From a bacterium (lineage in GTDB: Bacteria; Vulcanimicrobiota; Xenobia; Xenobiales; JADMJV01), in assembly GCA_030149525.1 (NCBI GenBank), contig JASBRJ010000274.1, forward strand, positions 1-64,000: a stretch of 64,000 bases of DNA. Direction: 5' to 3'. The position numbers and the translations under genes are program-made. Positions within the stretch are counted from its first letter, which is position 1. Each line of letters begins with the position of its first letter. Positions 13,246 to 47,610 of this stretch are shown here, piece after piece. Under the pieces are notes generated by a model. The model made no database searches. It was not told the DNA's origin and was given only the letters and a program-made list of their open reading frames with translations.

Positions 13246-13273
13246 AGACTCTTCCACCTGAGTCGTTTCAAAG

Positions 13274-27027: not shown

Positions 27028-28221
27028 ATGAATGTACTGTCCTCGAAAACACCGACAAGATTAGCTCCCATGCAGCCTCCCCAGGGTGGATTCGCCCTGG
27101 CGGGACAGATGGATCAGGAGATACGGTCAGGCTCCTTAGACTCTTTGGAACTCCGGTATGTCAACGATTCCTATGAGAGGGAAAAGGCTCGGACTCTCGC
27201 CGACTTCGGCATGAAGTCCGCTGTCTACGGCACAATGGGTCTCTTGGGTGGCTTTGCTTTGACTGAGGGCCTGCCCCTGGGGGCGGCTGTGGGAGTCGGT
27301 CTGGGCGCATACCTAGCCTGGAATTCTTCTCTTCGTCATTCTACCGGGAAGGTGACCGTCAAACACGATGGACAGGTCCGTCAGGCCCGATATTTCGGCT
27401 CGGCAAAGAACTACCGTAAGACACCGGAGGAAGTTCGAGCAGAACTCATTCTTAAACAGGTTCTGGGAGAGCAGATCGGACCCTACACGCCCCGTCCCGG
27501 TGAGGTGCCTGAGCCTGAATCTTTAGGAGCCCTCAACGATCGCAGGGAGCAATTGAATGCACTGAACAAAGAGAGACGTCTGGTGGCAGACTTCGGTCAG
27601 AAATCACATTATGGATATCAGGTCATCAATTTAGTTGACGATCTTACGGCGGCGAAGTTGATCAAGGGGGGCAAGGACGTCTACGCCGTCAGTGGAAGTT
27701 CGGCCGACGTCAAGCACACCTTGGAGGTCTCCGGAACCAATGAACGCGGTTCCCAGAGACTGGAGCAGTCAGGAACCTATATCGACAGAACTTATGACTA
27801 CACTTTGACCCCTCTGAAAAGCGAAGAGAGTCTGGATCACATCCCTGACGGCGAGGGATTACCCGAGGGGATGGTCGGTGTTTATAAGAATTTTGACTCG
27901 TGCTCCGTGAGCATTGCGACCGATAGTCAGACCGGCTACGGCATGGTCGACGGGGAACAAAGCGCCAACACTCACGAGTTTAGACGATTCAGCCGAGACC
28001 GAAGTTTGGACCTGGGCTCTCGGAATAAGGCACAGGTCGTCACGAAAAGCTCCATCAACGTGAGAGATCTTGTCACTTTGTCCGGTGTCTTGGGCGGTAT
28101 GCTCACTGGGATGCATCTGGCTCCCGCTGTAAAAGCGGCCGGGCTGATGGGGGGAGTCATCGGTGGTGTGGCAGGACGAGAATTGGGATGGATAGCCCAG
28201 GATCATATGCCTCGCTTTTAG
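27028..28221 (+). CDS. Glycine-zipper protein, paralogue of the gene at 29,092
   Basis: A 397-residue protein of unknown family. A Gly/Ala-rich hydrophobic segment at about 63-96 (GTMGLLGGFALTEG, LGAAVGVGLGAYLAW) and another near the C-terminus (SGVLGGMLTGMH...GLMGGVIGGVAG) look like glycine-zipper membrane-inserting segments. Between them are NYRKTPEEV, a charged helix ending ERRLVADFGQKSHYG, and a Ser/Thr-rich beta region. The gene two places downstream repeats this order and several motifs, including KTPxE, ERRLxADxGxKxxYG and GDGxGLPE. The ATG has no strong ribosome site. I infer a membrane-associated structural or effector protein, nothing more. Confidence 0.6.
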   Translation: MNVLSSKTPTRLAPMQPPQGGFALAGQMDQEIRSGSLDSLELRYVNDSYEREKARTLADFGMKSAVYGTMGLLGGFALTEGLPLGAAVGVGLGAYLAWNSSLRHSTGKVTVKHDGQVRQARYFGSAKNYRKTPEEVRAELILKQVLGEQIGPYTPRPGEVPEPESLGALNDRREQLNALNKERRLVADFGQKSHYGYQVINLVDDLTAAKLIKGGKDVYAVSGSSADVKHTLEVSGTNERGSQRLEQSGTYIDRTYDYTLTPLKSEESLDHIPDGEGLPEGMVGVYKNFDSCSVSIATDSQTGYGMVDGEQSANTHEFRRFSRDRSLDLGSRNKAQVVTKSSINVRDLVTLSGVLGGMLTGMHLAPAVKAAGLMGGVIGGVAGRELGWIAQDHMPRF

Positions 28222-28293
28222 CTTCGTCTCGTTTTCAGTTCGATTTCAGCCTCCTACGATAAGCTAACAGCAATCAAAAAGCGGAGGAAATCC

Positions 28294-29085
28294 ATGTCTA
28301 TGACTCTCAACGCTTCTTCTCACTCCAATGCAAGTAAAAAGGTAGTCGTTACAAGCGGGACCCAGAGATCCCAGGTGTCTACCGAATCCCAAATGTTCTC
28401 CAAAGATGCCCCGGTAGTGACCGGCGAGCAGGGGATGAGCACCCAAGAAACTTTTGAAATGGCCGCACCTGGTCAACAAGACTTTAGCGCCGAGCAATCG
28501 CTGGCCAAACTGGCCCGTGCTTCGGCATCTCCCAAGACTCATGGGAGCAGCTTTTCGAGCCTCGATGCCGACGACAAAAAAGAAGTTCGTCGCATCATGA
28601 AAGACCTCAACAAACAGGCTCGACTTTTCGCTCGTAATGAGGAGGGGCAACTGGTTCGCATCGGCCCTGGTACCGGCAAAGAGCTCTTGGATGCCAACAA
28701 GCCTATTGAGATTGTGAGCAGACTGGGCTCCATCAGGACAGAGACGGGTGAGTCGAAGCGTCACAGTGTTCACAAAGAAGACTGGTTCAGTGTCGACGAC
28801 AAATACAGTTCTTCTAGCTCAAGCTCCGAGAAAATCGATAAGCTCGAGTACTCGGCCTGGCCTATCACCCAGTGGGATAGCCTTCTCTGGCATGATGAAG
28901 ACGACATGCAAGGCGTTCCAGGGACACCGATTCTACCTGCCAACGGACAGCCTGTTGTGGTTTCTCGTGAGTGGGAGTCGAAGTGGAGTCGCTACTCCGA
29001 AGAGAATGTTGGATTCTTCACTGTGGATACCACAATCGACAGAGCCTCTGGTCACTCCAACATACGAGAAGTTCCCAACTCCTAG
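28294..29085 (+). CDS. Ser-rich protein in glycine-zipper gene cluster
   Basis: A 263-residue protein with GGAGG seven bases before the ATG. The first 80 residues are polar and rich in Ser, Thr and Gln. The central part (ARLFARNEEGQLVRIG...ELLDANKPIEIVSRL) aligns loosely with the equivalent segments of both flanking glycine-zipper proteins. A run of six serines lies near 190. No hydrophobic segment. It looks like a soluble relative of its neighbours that lost or never had the zipper parts. Family unknown. Confidence 0.55.
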   Translation: MSMTLNASSHSNASKKVVVTSGTQRSQVSTESQMFSKDAPVVTGEQGMSTQETFEMAAPGQQDFSAEQSLAKLARASASPKTHGSSFSSLDADDKKEVRRIMKDLNKQARLFARNEEGQLVRIGPGTGKELLDANKPIEIVSRLGSIRTETGESKRHSVHKEDWFSVDDKYSSSSSSSEKIDKLEYSAWPITQWDSLLWHDEDDMQGVPGTPILPANGQPVVVSREWESKWSRYSEENVGFFTVDTTIDRASGHSNIREVPNS

Positions 29086-29091
29086 ATCAGC

Positions 29092-30690
29092 GTGAATATT
29101 CCCTCTTCCCAAACGGGCCTGCGAGCAGCGTCCGGTAGGCTCCCTATGGTCTCCGGGCAGGCGCTTGGCCGGGTCGACGAAGCGCTTTCTCAGGGAGAAC
29201 TTCCTCAAGACATCTTTCTTCAGCAAGATGCTGAGAGTGGAGGCTTGTCCCTGGTATCGCGCTCCGGTCCGGGAGCAGTTCCTTTGGACGGTAACCGGAG
29301 TGGAGTGAAGAACGCTCGCAACGGTACGCTAGCACGGTCTCTCGCAGGAGCACCTCTCTTCATGGCACCGGGTGCCATGTTGGGATATGTGGGGATGCCT
29401 GGATATCCCCTGGTGGGGGCTGCGGTGGGTGCCGGGGTCGGTTTGGCCATGCTCTACGATGTTATCAATCGTGACCGGGGCGAGGTGGAAGTCAACTCGT
29501 CGGTGGGAGAGGGCACTAGAACGTGGTGGGGGACGCCGGAGAACTATGAAAAGACTCCTCAAGAGCAACACCTAATTCTTAACGCCTCGGGTGCCCTGGG
29601 GGACAGGGTCGTTCCTGTTCAGAACTATATCCCGCCGGGCGGTTCCGATCCTCAGCTCTTGAGAGAGTTGGATTCCCACAAGGAGAGACTCAAGGCTCTC
29701 GGTTCAGAGCGACGCCTCCTTGCTGATCTGGGAGGCAAGACTCGATACGGTCAACCTGCCCTTCAGTTGATTGACGCCGGTGCTGCCCGCGAGTTGATGA
29801 GTCGAGGCCAAAGTGTTCACCTGATCGATTGCGACGAGGTTTCCGAGGTGGTGAAACGTTTCCAATCGGAGTCACACTCAGGCACCCATGACAAAAAAGC
29901 CGTCGAAAGCTACAGCTACACTGAGAGCAGTTTCTCTTACCGATTACAGGAGTTGAGGACGCCGGCCGACCTGCACGACGCGGGTGACGGCAAAGGTCTG
30001 CCGGAAAATTTTCTGGGCGTACCCCGAGATAGCAACCGCTTTAGTAAGAATACGCGCTTCGGCCAAGCCAAAGCCGACAGAGTGCGCGAGGGCAAAGACG
30101 ACAAAACCACAGAGTCACACAGTCAGACGGTGATCGGTCCGGGCGAGATCAAGAAGGATTCCGCTCTCCTCAACTCCATTCGCTCCATGACCGACCCGTC
30201 CACTCGTGGATACGCCATAGCAGGCGGTGTGCTTGGAATGTGTGCGGGTCTTGCCGTTCCTGGAGTTGACCCCGCTTGTGCCGCCACTCTGGGTGGAGTC
30301 GCCGGTCATTTCGTAGGCCGGGTGAGTGTGGCGAAAGCGGCGCGCAACAGAGAGTCTGCGCCTATCTTAAAGAAGGTTCTTGCAGGAGCCGGTGCGATAG
30401 CCGGGGTCGGACTTGGAGTCATGGCTGCCGCCCAAACTGGAGACGTAGGCATGGTAGCCGCCTCGACTGTGGCCGGACTCGGAGGAGCCAGCGCCGGACT
30501 GTGGTTGATGAGGGGTAAGCCTCACGCCGCCGAAGCCGCCCTGGGTGGCTTTGCACTGGGAGGAGCGCTAGGCATAGCCAACTCTTTTATCGGTCCGAGT
30601 TTGCCGGCTACTATCGCCCTGGGGGCTTTAGGGGCCAGTCTTGGTGGGACGGTGGGCTACTTGATGGCCGACCGCAAGCCCGGAGTTTAG
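29092..30690 (+). CDS. Large glycine-zipper protein
   Basis: A 532-residue protein starting at GTG six bases after the previous stop. It repeats the architecture of the gene at 27,028: Gly-rich hydrophobic segment (about 105-140, VGMPGYPLVGAAVGAGVGLAML), ENYEKTPQEQ, charged helix with ERRLLADLGGKTRYG, Ser-rich middle, GDGKGLPENFLGV. The C-terminal 190 residues are almost wholly glycine-zipper repeats (GGVLGMCAGLAV, GAGAIAGVGLGVMAA, GGFALGGALGIANS), enough for about six membrane passes. Such repeats occur in pore-forming and membrane-inserting proteins. No assigned family, and a role in membrane remodelling or contact toxicity is speculation. Confidence 0.6.
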   Translation: MNIPSSQTGLRAASGRLPMVSGQALGRVDEALSQGELPQDIFLQQDAESGGLSLVSRSGPGAVPLDGNRSGVKNARNGTLARSLAGAPLFMAPGAMLGYVGMPGYPLVGAAVGAGVGLAMLYDVINRDRGEVEVNSSVGEGTRTWWGTPENYEKTPQEQHLILNASGALGDRVVPVQNYIPPGGSDPQLLRELDSHKERLKALGSERRLLADLGGKTRYGQPALQLIDAGAARELMSRGQSVHLIDCDEVSEVVKRFQSESHSGTHDKKAVESYSYTESSFSYRLQELRTPADLHDAGDGKGLPENFLGVPRDSNRFSKNTRFGQAKADRVREGKDDKTTESHSQTVIGPGEIKKDSALLNSIRSMTDPSTRGYAIAGGVLGMCAGLAVPGVDPACAATLGGVAGHFVGRVSVAKAARNRESAPILKKVLAGAGAIAGVGLGVMAAAQTGDVGMVAASTVAGLGGASAGLWLMRGKPHAAEAALGGFALGGALGIANSFIGPSLPATIALGALGASLGGTVGYLMADRKPGV

Positions 30691-30773
30691 AACTTCAAGC
30701 TCCACATGCATCGAATCTCAACAATCTCTGCATTCCACCTTAAAAATCATGGGTTAAACTAGTAACAGAAGGT

Positions 30774-30855
30774 CCTCAGCACAACCGATTCACGAAACAT
30801 TGAGGCGAAATGCCGTGATCCTGGACTGGGTGGTGTCGTGACATTGTGCTGAAGG
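30774..30855 (+). ncRNA. Candidate structured RNA element
   Basis: In the 275-nt gap, arms 30,774-30,784 and 30,844-30,855 pair over eleven bases with one bulge, and a nested five-base stem (30,791-30,795 with 30,836-30,840) lies inside. A terminator follows 12 nt later. The unit could be a small RNA or the leader of the ABC exporter operon. It matches no RNA class I recognise. Confidence 0.3.
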
Positions 30856-30867
30856 TACCTCTTAAAG

Positions 30868-30911
30868 AATAAGCCACCTGGACGCACCCGAACGAGTCTA
30901 AGTGGCTTATT
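30868..30911 (+). terminator. Terminator-like hairpin upstream of ABC operon
   Basis: Ten-base perfect arms AATAAGCCAC (30,868-30,877) and GTGGCTTATT (30,902-30,911) enclose a 24-nt loop, followed by GACTTT. The stem is good but the U-tract is short. It could end transcription from the glycine-zipper genes or act as an attenuator for the operon that starts 55 nt later. Confidence 0.45.
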
Positions 30912-30965
30912 GACTTTCAGAGGGTTCCCAGCCAACTTTGTAAATCAGTTAGGGCTGGAGGATCT

Positions 30966-32747
30966 TTGTTTCGCTCTAACGTGTTTGTTCATCTCGTCTC
31001 GATCATGTGGCGCCATTCCAAGGGCCACCGGGGTCGAGTCGTTGCCTATCTGACCCTATCAGTGACGGCTATTCTTGTTCAGTTGGCCATTCCGCTGGTG
31101 ATGGCTCAGTTGATGAACAACCTCCAATCGTTGTCCGGGGCGGCTCTAGCCTCTGAGACCAAGCGCCTTCTTCTGCAGTATGTGGCCCTGGGGTTTCTCT
31201 TCTGGTTTCTGCATGGTCCAAGCCGGGTGCTTGAGGTGGGCATCGCCTTCAAAGTTAAACACGCCTTTCAAGACTGGATGATGAAGCGGGTGACCTCGCT
31301 CCCCATGAAGTGGCATAAGGACCACCATTCGGGGAGCATCATCGACGGTATTGCCCGGGCGGTTTATGCCATGGGCGAGTTCTGTGAGGGAGGCTTTGAG
31401 CTTCTTCAGATGGCCACTCGGTTCGTGGGTTCCATCGCCATGCTCACCTGGTTTGCTCCCGGCATCGGGCTAGGAATGTTGGGCATCGCTTTGCTGGTGG
31501 CCTTCGTCATCACCCTCTTCGACCGTTATCTGGTGCCCAAATACGAGAAGCTTAACTATCGTTATACTAAAGTGGCGGCGGCCATCCAGGATTATCTCAC
31601 CAATATCGGTACGGTGCTGAGCTTGCGCTTGGAGAAACGGGTGGTGGAAGAGATCAGCACTCGGACTATGGCCAACTACGATCTCTACCGGGGAAACAAC
31701 ACGGTGAACGAGTTGAAGTGGTTTGCCACCTCAAGATTGATCGACGTGGCCCAGGCGGCCTTTCTGCTCTATTTGATTCTGTCCGTCCCCAACGGGGCCA
31801 AGGTGGGGAACGTCTACGCGGTTTCCGAGTACCTCAAGCTGCTGGGTGAAGTGTTCATCACTTTCACCTGGAAGTACGGGCGGGTGGTGTCTCAGAGCAC
31901 CAGGGTGCGTGGCATTCAGTATATCGAAGACGACTACGATCGTCTCATCGGCCAGTCCGCCACCGCCGAACTTCCCGAGGATTGGAAGGAGTTGACCATC
32001 CAGGGGCTCCGCTTTCAGTTTGAGCCCGCCGAGGGTGAGGAGCCGAGAGAGAACGACCGGCCTTACGCGGTGGATATCGAGAGTCTGAATCTCAAGCGGG
32101 GTGTAAGATACGCAGTCGTTGGGGAGAGCGGTGGCGGCAAATCCACCTTTCTGACCCTTCTACGAGGGCTGAACCAACCTCAAGAGCAGCCTGAAGTGAT
32201 CTGTGACGGAGAGCCGTTGCCTTACGGTCTTCACCACATCAACCACCACACAACCCTCATCCCTCAACATCCGGAAATCTTCTCCGACACCATTCGTTTC
32301 AATGTCACCGTGGGAATTCCATGTTCTGATGAGAGGGTTGTTGAGGCCTTGCAAACCGCGCGTCTGGAGAAGGTTCTCAAACGTCTACCCAACGGTCTGG
32401 AAACCAACATCGCCGAGAAAGGCGTCAATCTCAGTGGAGGGGAGCGGCAAAGGTTGGCCCTTGCCCGAGGAGTCTTCTTCGAAGGGGAGATTCACTCGGC
32501 GCTGGTCCTCCTCGACGAACCGACCAGCAGCGTGGACAGCGCCAATGAGCAGAAGATTTATGAGAACTTACTGGAGCAGTTTTCCGATCGTTGCGTTCTC
32601 TCCGCTCTTCACAAGTTTCATCTCCTCTCTCTCTTCGATGAGGTGATGGTTTTTGAAGAGGGAAAGCTCACCCACGCCGGTCCTGTGGAGGAGTATATGA
32701 GTCGGTTGAATCCTGGGGATACATTGGTGCGGGGTGATGGGGAGTGA
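30966..32747 (+). CDS. ABC exporter, fused membrane and ATPase domains
   Basis: A 593-residue type IV ABC exporter half-transporter. Six helices fill residues 20-330, followed by the ATPase: Walker A GESGGGKST, Q-loop in LIPQHPEIF, signature LSGGERQRLALARG, Walker B ALVLLDEPTSS and the switch histidine in SALHKFHLL. TTG is used as start because GGAGG sits five bases before it and no better codon is near. There is no C39 peptidase domain, so it would export without leader cleavage. It begins a coupled four-gene run and most likely exports the product of the three enzymes that follow. Confidence 0.88.
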   Translation: MFRSNVFVHLVSIMWRHSKGHRGRVVAYLTLSVTAILVQLAIPLVMAQLMNNLQSLSGAALASETKRLLLQYVALGFLFWFLHGPSRVLEVGIAFKVKHAFQDWMMKRVTSLPMKWHKDHHSGSIIDGIARAVYAMGEFCEGGFELLQMATRFVGSIAMLTWFAPGIGLGMLGIALLVAFVITLFDRYLVPKYEKLNYRYTKVAAAIQDYLTNIGTVLSLRLEKRVVEEISTRTMANYDLYRGNNTVNELKWFATSRLIDVAQAAFLLYLILSVPNGAKVGNVYAVSEYLKLLGEVFITFTWKYGRVVSQSTRVRGIQYIEDDYDRLIGQSATAELPEDWKELTIQGLRFQFEPAEGEEPRENDRPYAVDIESLNLKRGVRYAVVGESGGGKSTFLTLLRGLNQPQEQPEVICDGEPLPYGLHHINHHTTLIPQHPEIFSDTIRFNVTVGIPCSDERVVEALQTARLEKVLKRLPNGLETNIAEKGVNLSGGERQRLALARGVFFEGEIHSALVLLDEPTSSVDSANEQKIYENLLEQFSDRCVLSALHKFHLLSLFDEVMVFEEGKLTHAGPVEEYMSRLNPGDTLVRGDGE

Positions 32748-33720
32748 AGGACCACATTTCCCAGGAGACGAACTCCACCGGGTGACGGAGAACCTGCCAA
32801 GACTGAACGACACTGGTGTACTCTGTCTGGGCGAGTATCGATTTGAGCGTTTAGCTCTCGGCGCCATGCGACTTCTGTCTACCAACGCCGAGAAAGACGG
32901 CCGCTCCATCGAGTGTTACGCCGACCCCGTCGACCCCGAAGCCAATTGTGCCCTGATGCGGGCGGCCGTGAGCCAGTGCGGTATCGGGTATGTGGATTTT
33001 GCCCGAGGGTATGGGGCGCGTCCCGGGGCCGGTGAGCGTTGGTTCATGAAATGGATGGAGCCTTACCTGAAAGAGGTTTTATGGGCCACCAAGGTGGGCT
33101 ACGACCGGGATGCCGAGGGCGGTTGGGTTCTCGATCTTGATCCTGATTTTTTGCGCCGAGAGATTGAACTCAGTGTGGAGTTATTGGGCAAGCCGATTCC
33201 TCTTCTCTATCTGACCGCCGGTAGCACCGACGATGTGACCATTCGTCATCGCCAGAAGAGTGTTGTGGACTCTTTCCGACCGCTCTTAGAGTGTTATGAG
33301 CGTGGCGAGGCGACCCATCTCGGGGTGGCCAATGTGACGGCTCAGGAGCTTCAGCAACTGTTGGACGTAGCCCCCATCGGAATGGTGCAAAACAAATTCA
33401 CGGTGTCTTCTCTGGCTCAACCGGAGCAGAGGGCGGTGCTCGATCTGTGTCGTTCCAAGAATATCCCGTTCGTGGCCTGGGGCATATTTCAGTCCGACGA
33501 CGACGGACCGTGGGTTCCCGGAGATCAACTGGTAGAGGCGGCAAGAGAGATGTCGGTGACGCCTCAGGAAGCCTCCATCGCGATTCTCCTCAACTACGAC
33601 CCCAACTTTGTCGTCCTCACGGGAGTGTCTCGCCCCAAATCGTTAGCATCCAGTGTACGGGCCGCCAACATGAAGGTGCCTGTGGAAATTCTGAACCGAT
33701 TCCGATCCGAACGGGACTGA
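32737..33720 (+). CDS. Aldo/keto reductase-like protein
   Basis: A 327-residue TIM-barrel protein of the aldo/keto reductase superfamily, which reduces carbonyls with NADPH. Seen are the opening strand LGAMRLL, the YVDFARGYG segment with the catalytic tyrosine region, the lysine in WATKVGY, and the cofactor end SIAILLNYDPNFVVLTGVSRPKSL. The strand that usually supplies the catalytic histidine reads PLLYLTAG here, so that histidine seems missing and activity may differ. The start overlaps the ABC gene by eleven bases (a GTG one codon earlier is possible). The stop overlaps the next start as TGATG. Confidence 0.78.
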   Translation: MGSEGPHFPGDELHRVTENLPRLNDTGVLCLGEYRFERLALGAMRLLSTNAEKDGRSIECYADPVDPEANCALMRAAVSQCGIGYVDFARGYGARPGAGERWFMKWMEPYLKEVLWATKVGYDRDAEGGWVLDLDPDFLRREIELSVELLGKPIPLLYLTAGSTDDVTIRHRQKSVVDSFRPLLECYERGEATHLGVANVTAQELQQLLDVAPIGMVQNKFTVSSLAQPEQRAVLDLCRSKNIPFVAWGIFQSDDDGPWVPGDQLVEAAREMSVTPQEASIAILLNYDPNFVVLTGVSRPKSLASSVRAANMKVPVEILNRFRSERD

Positions 33721-35045
33721 TGGAAGAGGGGCGGCCAGAGGCGGGACAGGCCGTCGTGTCGGGCCTTGGCCCCAACGGGGTGGCTGCGGCTCTGGAGCTT
33801 TTAAAGAGAGGCTACCGAGTGACGGTGGTGGAGAAACGCTCCAAGTACACGCGCCCTATCCATCTCCATCTTCGCTCCACCTACCTGCAGGATATCCGTC
33901 GCCTGAGTGAAGAGCTTTTCCAGCGCCTGATGGCTATCGCTACACCCATCGAAGAGAACTCGCGAACAGGATCTCAAGCTTGCGACCCCGTCCCCAACTA
34001 TCTTCAAGACCGACGAGCCACCCCGAGAGAAGGGGAGCCCTGCCCTGTCTGGTCTCGACTCTCGACGCCTCCGGAAAGGCATGTGCGTCTGGACAACGCC
34101 GAGCGGCTTTTCTACGAGTTTCTTCAGGAAAAGGCTGCGGAGCACGATTCCAAGCTGACTATCCGCAGAGGTCCGGTTCTTCAACTTCAACCCACGCCCC
34201 ACGGTTATTACCGAGTTCTGCTGCAGGGAGAATCGGAAGACTTAGGCGTGCCCGCTCTGGTGGTGATCGCCGAGGGGGGCAAGAGTGTGACGGTGCGTGA
34301 TTTGGGGTTGGAGAGTGTTCGATTCTCTTATCCCAAGTATTTCATGAGCGCTCATGTGACAGTCCCTTTCGGCCCTCGAACCCGGCGAATCGACACCGAC
34401 GTTCGCGAACTGGTGGACGACCCTGGAGTGACGCCTGCCGAGGTGAGTCTGTGGGCCAGCGGGCACGGTGACTCCAATGAGGGGACCTGGGTTGTTCTGG
34501 AAGTTCCCGAGGCTCTACTTCATCAGCACCCGGATCAGGCTGAGGAATATTTCCTCAAAGGGGCGCTTCTTTTGATGGGGGCGCCTGTTGGGGCGGCCGC
34601 CAAGGAGCTACGAGCCAAGATCAAGGAGACGTTGCATAAAGGAGCTCTTCTGAGCCGTAAGCGGGGGGCGAACCTTCCGGGAATGGAAGCGGCCAGCAAG
34701 AAGACCTTCGCCGGGACCTTCAAATTCGAACAGCAGTGTCTTCGTTTTCCCGCTGCGGGTAAAAATGTTGTGGTTTTGGGAGACGCCGCGGGGATGGGGC
34801 ATCACGCCCTCAGTTCGGGGCTCGAGATGGGAGCCTATGATCTGGTGGCTCTGGGTGTGCTGTGTGAGGAGCTTCAGCGAGCTTCAGAACCAAAGGAGTG
34901 CATCGCTCGATACGCCGAGGCGGTTCGAAACTCCAGGCTGCGACTTTTGGGTCTTGGTATGAACGAGTATTACCCGGATTCTGCAGCCGGACGGTTACGG
35001 ATGCTTCATCGGGCCGCCGAGCTTTTCGGAGAGGGTGAAAGCTGA
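33720..35045 (+). CDS. FAD-dependent oxidoreductase
   Basis: A 441-residue flavoprotein of the group that includes FAD monooxygenases and geranylgeranyl-reductase-like enzymes. The N-terminal Rossmann motif is VSGLGPNGVAAALELLKRG followed by VTVVEKR, and the second FAD motif is VVVLGDAAGMGHH near residue 350. The first is slightly divergent (GLGPNG in place of GxGxxG). It overlaps both neighbours by one base (TGATG), so its synthesis is tied to the aldo/keto reductase and to the large multidomain protein. Substrate unknown. Tailoring of a peptide-like or lipid-like product is inferred from context. Confidence 0.8.
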   Translation: MEEGRPEAGQAVVSGLGPNGVAAALELLKRGYRVTVVEKRSKYTRPIHLHLRSTYLQDIRRLSEELFQRLMAIATPIEENSRTGSQACDPVPNYLQDRRATPREGEPCPVWSRLSTPPERHVRLDNAERLFYEFLQEKAAEHDSKLTIRRGPVLQLQPTPHGYYRVLLQGESEDLGVPALVVIAEGGKSVTVRDLGLESVRFSYPKYFMSAHVTVPFGPRTRRIDTDVRELVDDPGVTPAEVSLWASGHGDSNEGTWVVLEVPEALLHQHPDQAEEYFLKGALLLMGAPVGAAAKELRAKIKETLHKGALLSRKRGANLPGMEAASKKTFAGTFKFEQQCLRFPAAGKNVVVLGDAAGMGHHALSSGLEMGAYDLVALGVLCEELQRASEPKECIARYAEAVRNSRLRLLGLGMNEYYPDSAAGRLRMLHRAAELFGEGES

Positions 35046-38000
35046 TGTCTCAGGGGAAAGCGACCCTGGAGGGGATCGTTCGAAAGCTGGGGGCCCTGGC
35101 TCAGCAGGGAGAACCGGTGGCCATTTTGTGGGACATGGACGGCACGTTGGTGGACACTCGTCCACGCATGCTGGCCTCAGTTCACACCTACGGTCGTACC
35201 GATGTAGAATTGACCGATGTGTCGCCCTCATGGCAGGAGACGGCTCACCGTTTAGGTCTCGACCCGGACAGATTTCGAGCCGTTTGGCAGCGCGTTTTCT
35301 GGGCCTACGAAAGCTTTGATGCCGATATCGAGAACGAAGAGGTGGCGGCCCTGGCTCGACTGGCAGAGTCCTTGGGGATTCAGACAGTCATCGTTACCGG
35401 GCGTATTGAAGAGTTGCGACCGGTCACCGCGCGTCAACTGGACCGTCTGGGGCTCAAGCCGACTCGGGTTTTCTTGAAGTCGGAGATGGGTGATTGCACT
35501 CCCTCGGTGAAGGCGAAGGTGATCACGCAGTTGGCTCAGGAAGGTCTGACCATGGGGGCCTTTGTCACCGACAGTCCTGAAGAGATCGCGGCGGTCACTC
35601 CCGAGGTGCTCTCTCATGCTCGGGATCTGGAATGTATTTTCGTGGAGTTGGAGGGGCTGTCTCCTCAGTTGAGAGAGGGAGTTCACAGGCTCACGGTTCC
35701 GTTTCGAAACGGGCCGCGTGTGGCGGCAAAGCCTGCAGAGCTAGCGGTGGGAGAGGGGAGTCTTGCTTTCGGCTTTGAGGCGGAGTACGAGATTGAGCGT
35801 GCCGACGCTTTGCTTCGACTTTACGACCCGTTGCCCGAGGCGGGTTTGTCGGCGGGTGAGTGGCACGGTTTGACGGCGGTGGAGCGGGCGGAGTGGGTGT
35901 ACAGTCAGTTCCCTGAGCCTCATTCTGAAGAGTTCGATCTCCCTTTGAAGCGCAACGAAACGAATCCGCTCCTCGATTTTCTCCCCTCCGGTTTGTTCGT
36001 CGATTCCGACGGCAATATCGAAGTGGTCTCTCGGCCCACCGAGGATCTGTCTTTGTTGTGGAGTCAGATAGAAAGGCTGGAGAATGCCGTGGGGCCGCCG
36101 CTTCTTCAGGTGACGATCTCGGCTCCTGGGGAGTGTCTGTGGGAGGACCCGAAGGCGCTTGACGGCTACCTCACCTTCTCTCATTTTTTGGATATCTTGG
36201 AGCGGATGCAGATAGGAGTTCGGCAGTACTCCGAAAACCCGGATCGAGAAGTGCTCTTGCCTTTTTTGCATCCCTGGCTGGGGCCCATGACGGCGGGCAA
36301 GCATCGTTTTATGCGCCAGTATCTGGAGGCGAACTGTCGGGGGGAACGGTTGGATGAGAAGTGGGTTCGATTGGTGGACCGGGCCTTCTCGTCGTTTAAG
36401 TACATTACGGGGAGTGCCTACAGACCGGCCTTGGCGGGCAAGGACAGAATCGCCATTGAAATTCGGGATGCTCACCGTAATAAAGCGTTATTGGCCCAAC
36501 GGGTGAGCCGACACGCCGTCTCTTTGATGAGCGGGCTTGAACCTTACAAGCCGTTTGCCGGAACCTGGGCTTTTGATTCCGAGACCGATTATGAGAAGCT
36601 CTCGCCTCGGGTTCGGGAGATGTTGGAGTCGGTGATTCCCACTCGGGAAAGGCCTGAGATCGACTTCATGTATAGCGACTATGACAGAATCGCTTTGCAG
36701 GTCTATCGCAATTTTGCCAAGCCGCTTAAGGACTATTCTGATGTGGAAGCCGCTCTTGATGATGGTGGGGACTCGGACCGGTTGGCCGTTGCTCGACAAG
36801 CCTATGTTGAGAAGCTTGGAAAGCTTGCTTTAGAGCGTGAGGAAAAATCTGAGGAGCAGATTTGTCGAGAACTCCAGGGGGCTCTGGCTCGGTTTGCGGT
36901 TGAGAGCGGTTTGGCGGAACGGTTTCAACGCTTCAGTGAAAGGTGCTTGAGTCGACCCTCGGCGCGGGAGGCTCTCAATGAGGTTCATCGATTCTTGCCT
37001 CTCACTCGGGCGCTTCCTCGAACAGCCTGGAGAGGGTCTCTGAAGAGTCGACTGGAGCGGCTTGTGTCGTTGTGGCCTGAGCAAGTTCGAGTTTGCTCGG
37101 AGGCTTCGGTGGTCAGCCGAGGAGGGGAGGAGGCGTCTCGGCCTCTGGTTCTGCTCTCGGCGGAGGGGCTTTCCCATTCGGAGAAAGAGGCTTTGAGATG
37201 TGACTTTGTCGATGCCGTGGCTTCTCAAACTCTCGGTATTCGGGCCACCGACCGGGGGAGTTTGGAGCTGAGGTTCGGGCGGTTTTGCTATTCCCCGGGC
37301 GGTTGGTCCACCGAGGAGAACGAGTATCGACCGTTTGCCGTGGGGGCGGGGATGGAGCTTGTTCTCTGTCTTTCTAGTTTGGAGAGCTACTGCATGGGTC
37401 GTCAGTTGGCCGCTCACAGGCCTTGCGATGAAGCGGCCCGGAGAGTTTCGGCGAGTGGTTGGCTTCGTCATCTTTCCATGGGGTTGAGCGGGGAGACGTT
37501 GGAACGGGCTTTGGGTCTGCCCCAGCCTGAGAGTATTGAGACGGCGATCATGGTTTTAGAGCGGGTGGTGCGTTGTGCCGATTCGCCTCGATTGGGCTTT
37601 GTGGTGCAGTGGACCGAGCGTTCGGTGGAGGAGTGGCTGGCCCGACATGGTGGTGCTGAGAAGCCCGTACTTCGCTTTGAGCCGTCGACCATCGCTTCCG
37701 GATTTCCCCTGAGCCTGAAGAGCGAGAAGCCGTTTTCTCGGCGTCTTGAGGAGTTGGTGGAGCGCTGGCCGGGTCATGCTCGGCTGGTGGAGAATGTGCC
37801 GTTTGTTTTCGGTAAGGGAACCAAGCCGAGACGGGTTCTGGTGGTGGCGCTCAAGGGTCTCGACGACGACGAATTCGATGCTTTTCGCGAGGACTATTTA
37901 GACATTATCGGAGCCGATACGGTTTCTTTTCCGTGTCGACTTCGAGCCGAGCATCTTCGGGCCAGAGTGGGGAAGTTGGCGCTGGCTCTGAGCGCCGAGG

Positions 38001-38455
38001 GGGTCAGAGTCGACTTTTATGAGCCTCCTTGGAACAGGCGTCGCATGGAGGCTGTTATCGAACTTGAGCCGTCGGAGGTGTCTCGGTTGAGGCAGTATAT
38101 CGGTGCAGTTATCGATGATACGTTGGGGATGCTTGGGCCGATCACTCTGGGGGCCGGCTGTCGTAAAGCGGCCAATCGGCTGAACGACAATCGACCGGCC
38201 GACGGTGGAAGACACAACTGCACCACCTGGGTAACCCTGTCTCCTGTTTGTGAGGACGGACGAGACCTCGCTCAGTTGGTGGAGATGCCTGATTCCTGGA
38301 CCTCTCATGACAATCCGGGATGGTGGTCCATGTTTCTCACCGGGGCTTCTCGAAGCGACCGGGTTCACACAGTGATCTACTGGACCGACTTGCCTTTAGG
38401 CGAAGACCCGACTCGACCGGGGGAACCGATCGAGTGGGATTTCAATCCGCATTAG
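35045..38455 (+). CDS. HAD / amidoligase-like / duplicated C-terminal domain fusion
   Basis: An 1136-residue cytosolic protein. Residues 1-215 are a HAD-type phosphatase (WDMDGTLVDTRP with Asp30 and Asp32, VTGR at 117-120, FVTDSPEE near 176). Residues 238-600 open with AFGFEAEYEI and continue with DGNIEVVSRP (322-331) and IAIEIRDAHRN (469-479), the layout of glutamine-synthetase-fold carboxylate-amine ligases (amidoligases). The rest is two copies of a domain, each with an R-LE-LV--WP opening and a beta segment (VLLSAEGLS / VVALKGLDD). The last copy ends with HNCTTWV near 1057-1063, reminiscent of NlpC/LRAT-type cysteine enzymes, which the first copy lacks. I infer ATP-driven amide bond formation. 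The ligase and C-terminal assignments are by motif pattern only. Confidence 0.6.
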   Translation: MSQGKATLEGIVRKLGALAQQGEPVAILWDMDGTLVDTRPRMLASVHTYGRTDVELTDVSPSWQETAHRLGLDPDRFRAVWQRVFWAYESFDADIENEEVAALARLAESLGIQTVIVTGRIEELRPVTARQLDRLGLKPTRVFLKSEMGDCTPSVKAKVITQLAQEGLTMGAFVTDSPEEIAAVTPEVLSHARDLECIFVELEGLSPQLREGVHRLTVPFRNGPRVAAKPAELAVGEGSLAFGFEAEYEIERADALLRLYDPLPEAGLSAGEWHGLTAVERAEWVYSQFPEPHSEEFDLPLKRNETNPLLDFLPSGLFVDSDGNIEVVSRPTEDLSLLWSQIERLENAVGPPLLQVTISAPGECLWEDPKALDGYLTFSHFLDILERMQIGVRQYSENPDREVLLPFLHPWLGPMTAGKHRFMRQYLEANCRGERLDEKWVRLVDRAFSSFKYITGSAYRPALAGKDRIAIEIRDAHRNKALLAQRVSRHAVSLMSGLEPYKPFAGTWAFDSETDYEKLSPRVREMLESVIPTRERPEIDFMYSDYDRIALQVYRNFAKPLKDYSDVEAALDDGGDSDRLAVARQAYVEKLGKLALEREEKSEEQICRELQGALARFAVESGLAERFQRFSERCLSRPSAREALNEVHRFLPLTRALPRTAWRGSLKSRLERLVSLWPEQVRVCSEASVVSRGGEEASRPLVLLSAEGLSHSEKEALRCDFVDAVASQTLGIRATDRGSLELRFGRFCYSPGGWSTEENEYRPFAVGAGMELVLCLSSLESYCMGRQLAAHRPCDEAARRVSASGWLRHLSMGLSGETLERALGLPQPESIETAIMVLERVVRCADSPRLGFVVQWTERSVEEWLARHGGAEKPVLRFEPSTIASGFPLSLKSEKPFSRRLEELVERWPGHARLVENVPFVFGKGTKPRRVLVVALKGLDDDEFDAFREDYLDIIGADTVSFPCRLRAEHLRARVGKLALALSAEGVRVDFYEPPWNRRRMEAVIELEPSEVSRLRQYIGAVIDDTLGMLGPITLGAGCRKAANRLNDNRPADGGRHNCTTWVTLSPVCEDGRDLAQLVEMPDSWTSHDNPGWWSMFLTGASRSDRVHTVIYWTDLPLGEDPTRPGEPIEWDFNPH

Positions 38456-39690
38456 CTTCTGCTGTGGGCTCTGGCTTGCATCTGGCGTACGAATTCCACT
38501 ACGGCGTCGGAGGCTCGGTCCACTTCGATGTCCCGTTTCTCAGGGCCCGGTTGAAACGATTGGGCCGTTTCCATAACCAGGCCCACTTTGCCCAGGGAGT
38601 CCACGTAGCTTGCCAGTCCGCCACTCACGGGGTAGAGGCCGTTGTCGGGGAGCAGCTTGTAGTCCACACCTTCCATGGCGCCGTTCATGGCGTTACAGAT
38701 GCTTTCGTATTCTTCCGGTTTGACATCGTGGGTGCCGCTTCCGGAAATGAGAAGCTGACCGAAGCTGTGGACGTCTAAGAGACCTAACGAATTTCGTTCT
38801 TGATCCAACAGATTCTTGATGACTTTCGCTTCGGGCTCCACCAGTGGGCCTTCGCCCCGATACATGTCGAGGTTGGGCTGATCGTTGGCTCCGAAGTCAT
38901 CGAGATAGGAGCCTTTGCTGTCGCCTTTGATGCGATAGTAGTGGGGAAATTGGCGATTGAGATCTACGCCTGTCACTTCGCCCTGATCGTTTCGCATAGT
39001 GTTTTTGCGCCACAGGGGGTCGACCTCACGGGTGTAAACGTAGCCGTCGGGATTGACGTTGGGAAGCATCCAGATTTCCATGTCTTCCAGGGCGCCTTCG
39101 GCGTCTCCGGCCAGAAGTTTTTCACTGGCGGTGGCCACCACGTCGTTTGTGATCCATTCTCTGGCGTGGATGTTTCCGGTGACGATAACACTTGGCTTGT
39201 TCTTAGATTCTTCGCTGTGCACATCGTTGGAGAGGCGCATGGCGAGAATAGGGCGGCCTTCGGTGGACTGACCGATGTTCACCACATCGACTCTATCGGG
39301 GTTAGCCGCCGCAATGGAGTACATTCGGGAGTAGATGCCTTCAAGCGATGGGTAGTCGTCTTTGTAGACGGAGGGTTGGCCGATCATGTGTTGTCGGACC
39401 TGAAGGAGAAAGTCTTCTACGTTAGTTTTGTCGTCGGGGTCGTTAACGGCCCGTTTGCTGGCCTCGATCATCTCTTCTAGAGAGAGTTTCCCGTTCTTGT
39501 CGGTGTCGTAGTAAACGGCAAACTTCATGCCTTTGTTGAGAATGGGATAAACTTTGTCGCCCACGGTCATTTCGTAGGTGTCGAATTCGAAACGGGGGAT
39601 ATGGCCGATTTTGACCTTTTCGTCTTTGGCAGGTGCAGCTTTGTGAGTGGGAAGAGCAGCAGTTGGTTGATTTTGTGTCTTTACGACCAT
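38452..39690 (-). CDS. M14 zinc carboxypeptidase with EF-hand-like loop
   Basis: A 412-residue metallocarboxypeptidase. Zinc ligands are in GNIHAREWI (HxxE) and DVHSFGQ, with the arginine motif DLNRQFP, PNVNPDGY, and the catalytic glutamate in VMETAQSF. Upstream of the catalytic domain, near residues 65-76, YDTDKNGKLSLEEM fits a calcium-binding EF-hand loop. No signal peptide is seen, although the polar N-terminus could hide a non-classical signal. It should remove C-terminal residues from peptides. It is convergent with the preceding operon, its stop overlapping that gene's stop by four bases, and an IS element now sits 70 nt before its start. Confidence 0.88.
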   Translation of the reverse strand: MVVKTQNQPTAALPTHKAAPAKDEKVKIGHIPRFEFDTYEMTVGDKVYPILNKGMKFAVYYDTDKNGKLSLEEMIEASKRAVNDPDDKTNVEDFLLQVRQHMIGQPSVYKDDYPSLEGIYSRMYSIAAANPDRVDVVNIGQSTEGRPILAMRLSNDVHSEESKNKPSVIVTGNIHAREWITNDVVATASEKLLAGDAEGALEDMEIWMLPNVNPDGYVYTREVDPLWRKNTMRNDQGEVTGVDLNRQFPHYYRIKGDSKGSYLDDFGANDQPNLDMYRGEGPLVEPEAKVIKNLLDQERNSLGLLDVHSFGQLLISGSGTHDVKPEEYESICNAMNGAMEGVDYKLLPDNGLYPVSGGLASYVDSLGKVGLVMETAQSFQPGPEKRDIEVDRASDAVVEFVRQMQARAHSRS

Positions 39691-39759: not shown

Positions 39760-41309
39760 CAATGCCCATGAAATTAGTTGATCCGGACATCTAGGTAAAG
39801 AGGGGACCTCTCTAGCATGTTGGTTTTGCGACAAACTAACCGAAGAAAGGTCCCCGAATCGACATGCAGCGCACTGGTCTAGAATTCCTTGGAGAGCTTA
39901 CGAGCAAGTTTCTTACAAGGCTTATTGGAGACGGTATTTTAGATGAAGCTACCGATACGATAGTTGATAATTGGCATAGTGAGAGAGAGGTGCGCTTTCG
40001 TTCCTGCCACGCTACCCCCAAATTGACGATTTGGCTTTTGCTACTAATGGCTCTTTACCGAGACCTCGGCATCTACAGCGTGTACCAGAAGCTCTTGTCG
40101 TTCATGTCCGCCGCTAGACCGGACTTCGAACTCAAGTCAGTCACTGCGGAAGCTCTCGTCAAGGCGAGGGCGAGACTGGGCTCCCAACCACTACAAGAAC
40201 TCTTTATGAAACAGACTGGGGCAATGAGTGTCCCGAGCAGCTTCAAAGGCCATCGTCTATGGGCTTTGGATGGTTCAGAATTTACCCTTTCAGACACGCC
40301 TGAAAACGTTGCGGAGTTCGACCGTAGAGCGGACGCTTGCTACCCAAGCGCAAAGGCGGTTCTTCTGCTTGATGTCCATGGAAGAAGAGTTCGAAACTGT
40401 GCCTGGACGAGCTGGAGAAAGCACGAACTCAATTGCGCCTCAGCCGTTACTTCCAGTCTCGGCAAAGGAGACTTGCTCTTGCTAGATAGCGGCTACGCGT
40501 CTTTCAGGTTCTTTTGGGAACTGGTGCAGCAAAGGGGTGCATCTTTTGTTTGCAGAGTGACTTCGCAGTGGAACCCGGAAGTGGTCGAAGAGCTCTCGCT
40601 CGGCGACACCATTGTGAGAGTGAAAACGAACAAAAAAGACCGTGCAGAATTTTATCGCCAGGGAATCAATCCTAATCGAGAAATGCTGTGCCGCCTTATC
40701 ACATTTAAAGTCGGTTCGGGCGAAGTGATCCGGCTTCTAACAAACCTGACTGATTCTCGGAAATACAAGAAGACAACACTCGCCAAGCTTTACCATAGGC
40801 GCTGGGAAATCGAAACCTCCTTCGACGAAATCAAGAATGATCTTTTCTCGGTAAGGAGAGGGAAGCAGCCCACTCACTTCCGCAGCAAAAGCCCGCAGGG
40901 AGTATATCAAGAAGCCTGGGCTCTCTTGATTTGTTACAACCTGGTCAGGGACTTGATGGTTGAAGCTGCAGAATCTACGAGAGTACAGCCTAGAGAGCTC
41001 AGTTTTACGAGAGCAACGGCACTGATTAATGAATTCATCCACTTCTCTGCTTGTCTTAAGCAGAAGCCCAAAATTGCCGCCCTCAGAGCCTCACTTGTTG
41101 AACGAATCGGTCTTTCAGTCATTGATAGACCGCAGCGACCTAGAAGCTGTTGTCGAAGGGTCAAAAAGAAGATGACAAGATTCCGGAGGAAACGTCCCGG
41201 TGACCCTACCGAAGAGCGGAAAATCAGTATCCGAATCCGCTTTCTTGATGTCGTACTTGGAGTGAAGACTAAAGAGGTGACTCGCTATTGAATAATTTCA
41301 CCAGCATTG
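39760..41309 (+). mobile_element. IS4-family insertion sequence, complete
   Basis: A 1550-bp element bounded by imperfect inverted ends that both begin CAATGC and share TGAAATTA a few bases further in. It carries a single transposase gene and is flanked by a perfect 10-bp target duplication, so insertion looks recent and intact. It landed between an MFS gene (stop at 41,325) and the carboxypeptidase gene (start at 39,690), which would otherwise be about 75 nt apart on the same strand. Confidence 0.88.
39864..41291 (+). CDS. IS4-family transposase
   Basis: A 475-residue DDE transposase. The first catalytic aspartate is in LWALDGSEF, the second in LLLLDSGYASF and the glutamate in the YHRRWEIETSFDEIK signature of the IS4 family. 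The C-terminal 80 residues are strongly basic. Length is normal for the family and the frame is intact, so it is probably active. It is read away from the carboxypeptidase gene and towards the MFS gene end. Confidence 0.92.
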   Translation: MQRTGLEFLGELTSKFLTRLIGDGILDEATDTIVDNWHSEREVRFRSCHATPKLTIWLLLLMALYRDLGIYSVYQKLLSFMSAARPDFELKSVTAEALVKARARLGSQPLQELFMKQTGAMSVPSSFKGHRLWALDGSEFTLSDTPENVAEFDRRADACYPSAKAVLLLDVHGRRVRNCAWTSWRKHELNCASAVTSSLGKGDLLLLDSGYASFRFFWELVQQRGASFVCRVTSQWNPEVVEELSLGDTIVRVKTNKKDRAEFYRQGINPNREMLCRLITFKVGSGEVIRLLTNLTDSRKYKKTTLAKLYHRRWEIETSFDEIKNDLFSVRRGKQPTHFRSKSPQGVYQEAWALLICYNLVRDLMVEAAESTRVQPRELSFTRATALINEFIHFSACLKQKPKIAALRASLVERIGLSVIDRPQRPRSCCRRVKKKMTRFRRKRPGDPTEERKISIRIRFLDVVLGVKTKEVTRY

Positions 41310-43609: not shown

Positions 43610-45307
43610 CTAAGAGGCAAACACCGACCAGTCAACACCGCATCTCGCTTTGTAGGAGTCCATTTCTCCGCCCGTCCAGCCAATTTCGTAGTCAAGCCAT
43701 TCGGCGATATGCAGGTCAACCTGGCGGTCTAAGCGGTTCCCGAACTGGTCGAAGAAAAGCAATCTGCCGTCGGATTGGCGTTCGATTTTGAGAAGTCCGT
43801 CGTGGGTGTTCTTGTGGCAGGCGGAACACAGGCCTATGAGGTTCCCGGGCTCGGTCTTTCCGCCTTTGGAGTAGCTTTCCAGGTGATGGATGTGGAGCCA
43901 AATTCGATTGCAGCACCCAGGGGTGCTACAACACCAGCAGTCGCGGCGTAAGATTTCTCTAGATTGGGCTTTGGTGGTGCTTCGGGCGTTGATGGTGAAG
44001 CGGACTCGGGTGCTTGCCCAAGGATTTTGGATAGGGTCAATTCGAACCCGGTGCGGGTCCAGTTGGGATATCAATTCTTCGTTTATTGAAGCTATACCGA
44101 GAGCCTCGGCCAGTAATTCGGCGGCGCTGCCGGATTGGACCCGGTGCGGGTTCGTTGGAGAGATGAGCTTTCCATCCCCCCCTTCACCCAAGGCCTCGGC
44201 CAGAAATTTTGCAGCCTGGTCAGGCTCGACCCGGTGCGGGTTCACCTGAGAGATAAATCCTTCATTGATTGAGTTGGTGCCGTGGACTTTGCCAAGCATT
44301 AGGGCAGCGAGTTCGGTTTGAACCCGGTGCGGGTCCATCCCAGCGATGAGCCCTTCATTGAACTCTACCCCCAAGGCCTGCGCCAAAAGTTCATTAGCGT
44401 GCCCCGACTGAACCCGGCGCGGGTCCAACTCAAAGCACTCAGGAACATCATCATCATCATCAGCCTCAATAAGCCCCATCTCCACAGCAGTTTCCCGAGC
44501 TTCGGCCACCACAGGAATGAGTCGAGCCCGCTCCGCCTGGAGATCCTTATCGGCCTCCTCAAGGACCTTGGCCTTCGACTCTTCGTCGAGCGGATGATTG
44601 GCCTGATACGAAGTGAGAAGTTCTTTCATGAACTCAGCATGAGTCATGGCTTTATCCTGTTTCAAAGAGAACGCTCGCTTGGCAGCATCGTACAGAACAC
44701 TTGTCTCCGGGTCGAAGGGACATTGAAAGTAGGACCGATAGGCGGTCTCCTCCAGGTCCACTTCGCCCGGCACGGCTCCAGGTGGAGTCTTACTCACCAA
44801 CGCCTGAATCTGCTTGTCATTGTAACGTCCGGCAAGCTGCAACCAATATGCCTCGGTTTCCTCAACGGCAACCCGAACAATCTCTCTCAATTTGCCCCAG
44901 GCAATCCGCCCCTCTTCCGCCGCCAACGATAACTCCGGCAAGAGAACCAACGCCCGAGCTACCCGCTTGAACTCATTGGCCTCCCATTTCTCCATCCCCA
45001 ACTTTGCCACGGCATAATGAGTGGAAGACGAACATCCAAACTTCTTAAAGTCGCCGGTCTCTTGAATCGCCAAAAGGCAACGACCCAGGGTAAGACGACT
45101 GGAAGTCAACGTTCCCACGGCTCTCAAGGCGAGTTGATGACGCACCCGTTCGCCCATGGAAATCAGCTCGGCAAGTCGGAATCTTTTGGGGTCTATGGAT
45201 AAGGGTCTCAGGCTCAAATTCGGCTCCTTTGAAGAAGGTTTTATATGACGTAAGAACGGCTTCATAAAACCAGTTTTGTCAACTGTAACACCTTCGACGG
45301 AGCCCAC
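43610..45307 (-). CDS. HNH endonuclease with inserted repeat array
   Basis: A 565-residue protein. The N-terminal 260 residues are helical and resemble the DUF222-like region of 13E12-type HNH proteins. Residues of about 285-425 are a run of four 30-residue repeats plus a partial fifth, each opening DPHRVQ. The HNH nuclease follows, with paired cysteines in CWCCSTPGC, LHIHHLESYSKGG, and LCSACHKNTHDG. The nuclease motif seems intact. The start is GTG. An ATG fourteen codons later is possible. Such proteins are usually mobile-element linked and are also seen next to intron and IS sequences as here. The role of the repeat array is unknown. Confidence 0.75.
   Translation of the reverse strand: MGSVEGVTVDKTGFMKPFLRHIKPSSKEPNLSLRPLSIDPKRFRLAELISMGERVRHQLALRAVGTLTSSRLTLGRCLLAIQETGDFKKFGCSSSTHYAVAKLGMEKWEANEFKRVARALVLLPELSLAAEEGRIAWGKLREIVRVAVEETEAYWLQLAGRYNDKQIQALVSKTPPGAVPGEVDLEETAYRSYFQCPFDPETSVLYDAAKRAFSLKQDKAMTHAEFMKELLTSYQANHPLDEESKAKVLEEADKDLQAERARLIPVVAEARETAVEMGLIEADDDDDVPECFELDPRRVQSGHANELLAQALGVEFNEGLIAGMDPHRVQTELAALMLGKVHGTNSINEGFISQVNPHRVEPDQAAKFLAEALGEGGDGKLISPTNPHRVQSGSAAELLAEALGIASINEELISQLDPHRVRIDPIQNPWASTRVRFTINARSTTKAQSREILRRDCWCCSTPGCCNRIWLHIHHLESYSKGGKTEPGNLIGLCSACHKNTHDGLLKIERQSDGRLLFFDQFGNRLDRQVDLHIAEWLDYEIGWTGGEMDSYKARCGVDWSVFAS
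44037..44436 (-). repeat. DPHRVQ coding repeats, about 91 bp period
   Basis: Within the HNH gene the sequence CCGGTGCGGGT and close variants recur at about 44,050, 44,140, 44,230, 44,322 and 44,412, spaced 90-93 bases and encoding the DPHRVQ opening of each unit. Units differ at many other positions, so the expansion is not very recent. Confidence 0.8.
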
Positions 45308-47115: not shown

Positions 47116-47550
47116 TTAGAGATTCAGCCCCCCGCTCGCCCAATCGGGTCCCTGCTGAGAAACCTGCCCGGCTGCGGAACATGAACCCGGTGCCCAATTG
47201 TAAGAAGCTGGGCCGGAAATCAAAGGCGGTAAACCCGATTTGGATGGCGGCTAACGATCAAAAAGACCCCCACACGACAGCCGGTGCTGTTACCTGGAGG
47301 TCGGTCGCTTTCGTCAAGTCGCCACGGTTCGGATGTGGCTCTCAATGTTGCGCCAACAAAGTCAACGGGCAAAGCACTCCAGGAAATACCTCAAAGACAG
47401 AGCCTGGTTTCGCCTTCCGCTGCCTCAACTTCTACACCCCAGCGTCTGGCAAGCTAACCGGTGAATGCCTTCGGTGGGAGCCCCGTGCGGGAAATCCGCA
47501 CGCCGGGTTCTGTGGGGGACCGGGGAGAGTGCTCTCCCCGGTCTACCTAC
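47116..47550 (+). mobile_element. Group II intron, 3' part with domains V and VI
   Basis: About 435 bases of structured sequence. ATGGCGGCTAACGAT near 47,243 resembles a domain III motif. A canonical domain V lies at 47,478-47,510, followed by a domain VI hairpin with eleven-base perfect arms (ACCGGGGAGAG/CTCTCCCCGGT) and an end at about CTACCTAC, 47,550. Coding frames over this stretch are incidental. The expected 5' half on the same strand is at 45,661-45,966. The two parts could be one intron with the toxin cassette placed inside, or remains of different copies. Confidence 0.65.
47478..47510 (+). ncRNA. Group II intron domain V
   Basis: GAGCCC pairs with GGGTTC at the base, a two-base CC bulge follows on the 3' strand, and CGTGCGG pairs with CCGCACG around a GAAA-type loop. 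The AGC of the catalytic triad is present. This is the signature that identifies the element as a group II intron. Confidence 0.8.
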
Positions 47551-47610
47551 CATGGGGAAACGCTCGCGCCTGCGATGGGCCCCTTCTCCGGCCAAAAGCC
47601 GGGGATGAGG
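47551..47610 (+). repeat. Third intron-derived block
   Basis: Immediately after the intron 3' end, about 60 bases (shared block ACGCTCGCGCCTGCGATGGG) match the reverse complement of positions 1-60, which belong to the 5' part of the left-edge copy. So fragments of a second intron abut this one, as if one copy had inserted into another or the two had recombined. Confidence 0.6.

Follow-up and report, generated by a model that had tools for sequence, protein, structure and literature searches.

Four overlapping genes for an ABC exporter, two redox enzymes and a giant orphan protein in a member of Xenobiales: a possible tailoring-and-export operon

In a stretch of 64,000 nucleotides from a bacterium of the Xenobiales (Vulcanimicrobiota, Xenobia, JADMJV01; assembly GCA_030149525.1, contig JASBRJ010000274.1, positions 1 to 64,000 of the forward strand), which is hereafter called the window, we have found four coupled genes encoding an ATP-binding cassette (ABC) exporter with complete ATPase motifs, an aldo/keto reductase, a flavin adenine dinucleotide (FAD)-dependent enzyme, and a giant protein that begins with a haloacid dehalogenase (HAD) phosphatase domain and ends with a repeat having a single Cys residue (Table 1). 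We tentatively read them as a lineage-specific (young) and co-translated operon for tailoring and export, a reading that we hold to be quite possible but short of probable. The first-pass annotation of this DNA had described an operon of an exporter, two redox enzymes and an “amidoligase-like” giant; the exporter, the redox enzymes and a giant that for the most part belongs to no described family were all confirmed, but the amidoligase label found no support by test.

The overlaps of 11, 1, and 1 bases that had been claimed between the four genes were reproduced from the open reading frames (ORFs), their coordinates and the junction sequence. Translation of the exporter starts with TTG at 30966, a few bases downstream of GGAGG, and its stop codon ends at 32747, while the ATG of the reductase is at 32737 (an alternative GTG at 32734 would make the overlap 14 bases). 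The TGA of the reductase ends at 33720, at which the ATG of the FAD enzyme begins, and the TGA of the latter ends at 35045, at which the ATG of the giant begins. The longer ORF listed for the FAD enzyme, starting at 33447, reaches spuriously upstream into the reductase gene, and the true gene is 33720-35045 with 441 residues. The four genes are coupled by these overlaps, which are placed behind a strong, single-copy hairpin: the region of 30840-30966 (127 nucleotides) folds with -46.8 kcal/mol (z-score, -4.1; none of 200 shuffles was as good), and the hairpin occurs only once in the window and, among 94 fetched loci, nowhere other than at the same place. Overlaps had been taken earlier as the mark of proteins made together, and this holds as far as an operon with coupled genes is concerned, but they are ordinary in this genome and nothing rare; short overlaps occur elsewhere in the window, too (e.g., 4474-4477 and 20592-20595, both on the minus strand).

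Table 1. Coordinates of the features discussed in the text
Feature	Position	Strand	Basis or remark
Strong hairpin, likely terminator or leader	30867-30912	+	between upstream gene cluster and exporter
ABC exporter half-transporter, 593 residues	30966-32747	+	Pfam
Aldo/keto reductase, PRK10376-subfamily-related	32737-33720	+	Pfam, NCBIfam, PDB
FAD-dependent oxidoreductase/monooxygenase-like, 441 residues	33720-35045	+	Pfam, motifs
Giant multidomain orphan, 1136 residues	35045-38455	+	ORF, phylum searches
HAD phosphatase domain, residues 1-235	35045-35749	+	Pfam, PHROG, motifs
Middle domain, unassigned; by eye, motifs ordered as in amidoligases	35750-36724	+	GFEAEYEIE at 243, GNIEVVSRP at 323, IEIRDAH at 471
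C-terminal repeat copy 1, residues 659-900, Cys replaced	37019-37744	+	RVSASGW at 800
C-terminal repeat copy 2, residues 892-1136, Cys1059	37718-38452	+	HNCTTW
M/V-[KQN]-I-x-[SP]-like N-termini	window 1251, 24601, 27028, 29092; loci L015, L017, L018, L021, L057		by eye

The exporter has both a membrane domain (ABC_membrane, 9.5e-15) and an ATPase domain (ABC_tran, 2e-20) in Pfam, and the latter is equipped with Walker A (386), the LSGG signature (489), Walker B (513), and ALHK (547), which identifies the protein as an ABC exporter; a C39 peptidase domain is not among its Pfam matches. Orthologues with 61-62% identity were found in three of 37 other related genomes (E<=1e-40). The reductase was matched by Pfam Aldo_ket_red (4.9e-23) and is nearest to the PRK10376 subfamily (NF007695, 5.9e-26, under the cut-off of that model), and its best relatives in PDB are AKR13B2 (2.3e-15) and pyridoxine 4-dehydrogenase (6e-14). 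Its relatives were found in two of the 37 genomes with 28-29% identity (E<=1e-15); when aligned with the one in genome G004, the column that we take to hold the catalytic His reads T here and R in G004. Also, the FAD enzyme was matched weakly by Pfam FAD_binding_3 (4.3e-5 to 8.8e-5), with the motifs GLGPNG at 15 and GDA at 354, and its best solved relative is a MICAL1 protein (7.6e-5 over 58 residues). Relatives of this enzyme occur in six of 57 other genomes, four of them with 26-30% identity and one marginal (5.5e-4), and the copy in G003 is interrupted by stops; an alignment scan of the wider genome contigs gave five loci, which are in the same five genomes as the relatives within the phylum.

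As for the giant, the N-terminal domain is assigned to HAD phosphatases by profile (Pfam Hydrolase, 1.2e-8; HAD, 1.3e-7; the polynucleotide kinase family phrog_415, 1.9e-8) and also by the intact motifs DMDGT at 30, TGR at 118, K at 154, and TDSPEE at 175, which correspond to the DxD, T, K, and D motifs of the family. The C-terminal part is a tandem duplication (BLASTP, 28% over 113 residues; HMMER, 8.2e-5 in its own genome; 27% in the full alignment), the two segments of which share nine residues as delimited. R-HNCTTW (1056) in copy 2 is aligned with R-VSASGW (800) in copy 1, and the Cys residue is thus kept in one copy only. This duplication with a single Cys is new relative to the first-pass annotation. 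When two segments of the giant were tried against PDB sequences, nothing beyond chance was obtained. Weak matches to bacterial proteasome activators and to QatB (E 0.0014, in a helical stretch) were also taken as chance.

The search for homologues of the giant found none (E<=0.001) among 148 further genomes from its phylum, and a profile of its repeat matched only itself in 149 genomes (E<=0.01). The middle domain gave a single weak match, in G010 (E 0.0089). Furthermore, tblastn with the giant found none among 72,556 records of plasmids and 50,697 of phages, scans of viral contigs gave no lead, and six exact patterns of eight residues, which by our estimate would miss relatives below about 70-75% identity, gave no confirmed case in the wider genome contigs. 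Weak matches in the phylum (E 0.0016-0.09) were discarded; of the four translated loci matching residues 898-950, three are MoaA-like by eye. A Methylobacterium match (E=1) is chance. Homologues standing alone with a housekeeping role, which would have spoken against the earlier interpretation, were not seen, as no homologues were found. The conserved order of the four genes expected earlier was not borne out, either: the other three genes are missing beside the orthologous exporters of the three related genomes, the fetched surroundings of which gave no match to any further ORF of the window, and the same order was found in no second genome within the phylum, with the wider genome contigs covered by the short patterns only. 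In terms of codon use, the giant ranks 11 in distance among 87 ORFs taken from the window together with three further stretches of the genome, and the third-position GC skew is +0.29 for the giant, +0.13 for the FAD gene, and about 0 for the exporter and the reductase; over 34-40 kb, the G/T-ending codons of the giant differ in strand bias from those of its neighbors. These are modest evidence that the giant might be newer or foreign and joined to a resident exporter.

If the four genes form an operon for tailoring and export, the giant, as the central enzyme, would build or remodel a small substrate, possibly peptide-like or phosphorylated: its HAD domain would dephosphorylate, the middle domain might perform amide chemistry, and the last repeat might be responsible for Cys-dependent cleavage or transfer, whereas the copy without Cys would have a structural or regulatory part. 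The reductase and the FAD enzyme would adjust the oxidation state of the product or substrate of the giant, and the exporter would move the product out. Such an operon could have arisen by the joining of three newer genes to an exporter that the family already had. Of the biosynthesis-and-export or modification pathway proposed earlier, the four coupled genes, the exporter and the redox families stand, but the conserved order and the amidoligase identity do not.

Several observations nonetheless weigh against a tailoring-and-export operon. The exporter is alone in relatives, and its original substrate hence cannot need the reductase, the FAD enzyme, or the giant. The relatives of the FAD enzyme are solo genes, and a gene with an Lnb_N domain is near in three of them (L015, L017, and L018), which hints at another role. 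Pfam gave no carrier or condensation domains of nonribosomal peptide or polyketide synthetases in the four proteins, and the gap of 30691-30965 has on the plus strand only one ORF of at least 20 residues (30910-31053), which runs out of frame across the exporter start; we see no convincing precursor gene in the gap, and no homologous operon was found in which this gap could be inspected as had been suggested; the first-pass annotation likewise saw no carriers, synthetase modules or obvious precursors. A short precursor adjoining maturation genes, as in ribosomally synthesized and post-translationally modified peptides, was accordingly not found in the gap. Also, segments covering residues 225-1136 of the giant gave no Pfam or NCBIfam match even at E<=10, and AlphaFold models of the whole giant from a single sequence (predicted local distance difference test score, 35.4) and of the repeat from an alignment of two rows (38.8) were too low in confidence for a structure search. 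The codon-use signal, finally, is modest, with a native appearance for two of the four genes.

The main alternative is an operon for detoxification or stress, in which no product is made: reactive compounds would be inactivated by the redox enzymes and then pumped out, with the giant repairing or modifying something that has been damaged. We regard this as somewhat unlikely. Detoxification often involves exporters as well as redox enzymes, and the solitary exporter of the relatives, the AKR13B2 and pyridoxine 4-dehydrogenase likeness of the reductase, and the resemblance of the giant's HAD domain to the phosphatase of phage polynucleotide kinase would all suit such a role, whereas a multidomain enzyme of 1136 residues is unexpected in a simple operon of this type and neither the ORF list nor the Pfam matches show a regulator gene overlapping with the four genes or immediately next to them.

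It is rather unlikely that the middle domain is a divergent amidoligase of the glutamine-synthetase fold that couples amine to carboxylate within a peptide-like product. The three motifs in Table 1 are seen by eye in the order of those of amidoligases, and the ordered pair GFExE...E[IV]V[ST]xP matches nine of 10 aligned amidoligases. Among 286 distinct ORFs of at least 200 residues, it matches 10, of which seven are amidoligase ORFs and the others are three copies or fragments of the giant, and there were four matches in 20000 shuffles. The pattern is specific in this small set, but all of these counts are post hoc: the sequences had been seen before the pattern was composed, so that the pair is a lead rather than a test and only suggestive of an amidoligase nature. 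The HxH usual in amidoligases reads QVT in the giant. When the genome was searched with PF12224, furthermore, two other loci but not the giant were matched, and the hhalign score of the middle domain against an alignment of 10 Amidoligase_2 proteins, to which genomes of this family contributed three and the 11 matching plasmid records seven, was 20.7, inside the range of 60 shuffles (mean, 14.3; maximum, 21.5). With residues 225-570 lacking Pfam and NCBIfam matches at E<=10 as well, we reject membership of Amidoligase_2 on these profile tests and regard the earlier “amidoligase-like” as an interpretation.

An acquired gene set that fell behind the resident exporter by chance and is co-translated without joint function, the giant being perhaps decaying or newborn, appears improbable: the gene order is not conserved in any genome examined and a transposase gene follows the operon at a distance of 1.4 kb, but the four frames are intact with exact stop-start overlaps, and so are the HAD, ATPase and FAD motifs.

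Returning to the tailoring-and-export operon, we would go further only as a bold and very doubtful proposal, namely that the giant is the first of a new multifunctional family (a HAD phosphatase, a highly divergent amide ligase, and a Cys enzyme with an inactive copy of its own) making and releasing a new class of small exported compounds with the redox enzymes. A narrow literature search found no work joining three of amidoligase, aldo keto reductase, ABC exporter, and haloacid dehalogenase. Another family of genomes of about 8 Mb in the same phylum is reported as exceptionally rich in biosynthetic clusters (PMC9259500). The giant shows that genomes of the Eremiobacterota type, which NCBI files under Vulcanimicrobiota, contain large and well-formed enzymes that belong to no detectable family. 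Should the operon produce a compound for export, tools seeking carriers or precursors would overlook it. The anatomy of the giant (the HAD domain, the motif positions, and Cys1059 versus the Cys-less repeat) opens direct tests.

Around the operon, three genes lie upstream on the plus strand (27028-30690); P0008 and P0005, with P0007 between them, are glycine-rich, related to each other (31.5% over 184 residues) and without a Pfam family. Downstream, an M14 zinc carboxypeptidase gene (38452-39690, minus strand; Pfam, 6.4e-47) is convergent and outside the operon, overlapping the 3' end of the giant by four bases (38452-38455); its third-position composition goes in the same direction as that of other minus-strand genes, but is extreme. 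The transposase is of IS4 type (39864-41291). The window also contains, at 12316-14242 (plus strand), a microviridin-type multi-core precursor of 309 residues (PF12559, 7.6e-34, six stretches passing), with PFFAQWA in the leader and about nine units such as TMKFPSDNEDGGGGPKPTPGPGPI, and 28 bases after it an MvdD-type ATP-grasp ligase (PF21068, 1.2e-19). Relatives of this ligase with 46-49% identity are in G002, G005, and G006, each beside a second ligase, and further copies are in G000 (C122 and C160); our literature search found no work joining microviridin and Eremiobacter. Other features are a fusion of carrier, AMP-binding and acyltransferase domains (885 residues; 59460-62117, minus strand), an Rfam group II intron domain match (47476-47551, plus strand; 45.3 bits), and an HNH-containing ORF (43610-45307). 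Many proteins of unrelated families in the lineage (Lnb_N, FAD enzyme, hydrolase, and peptidoglycan-binding) begin, by eye, with the short N-terminus given in Table 1, which is perhaps a shared sorting signal.

In comparison with known systems, ABC exporters on plasmids of Legionella, Comamonadaceae, and Agrobacterium are similar to the exporter over the full length (31-35% identity) and have the HHSG region in common, but they have other neighbors, none of which is annotated as a FAD enzyme, an aldo/keto reductase, or a giant. HAD phosphatases including the polynucleotide kinase type (PF25109 and phrog_415) share the domain and catalytic motifs with the giant, in which, however, HAD is fused to about 900 residues without family assignment and no kinase domain was found. 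Lnb_N (PF13387) and the giant both have a Cys motif, NSC in the former and HNC in the latter, and this motif, together with the Lnb_N genes near the relatives of the FAD enzyme, prompted us to try the C-terminus of the giant as an Lnb_N relative; it did not match an alignment of 18 Lnb_N proteins in either hhalign or hmmsearch. The Lnb_N gene at L017 was assigned by alignment with the copies at L015 and L018 and by a PF13387 search rather than a full Pfam scan. Lnb_N is present in four to five copies per genome in the sister genus (G001-G005) and in one copy in G000, and one Lnb_N gene of G002 is close to an Amidoligase_2 gene (L021). Amidoligase_2 (PF12224) itself, which has members elsewhere in the genome (C136 and, with a fused amidotransferase domain, C342), has the order of two short motifs in common with the giant, whereas the giant, having no match to the profile of this family, carries a HAD domain and a duplicated C-terminal domain.

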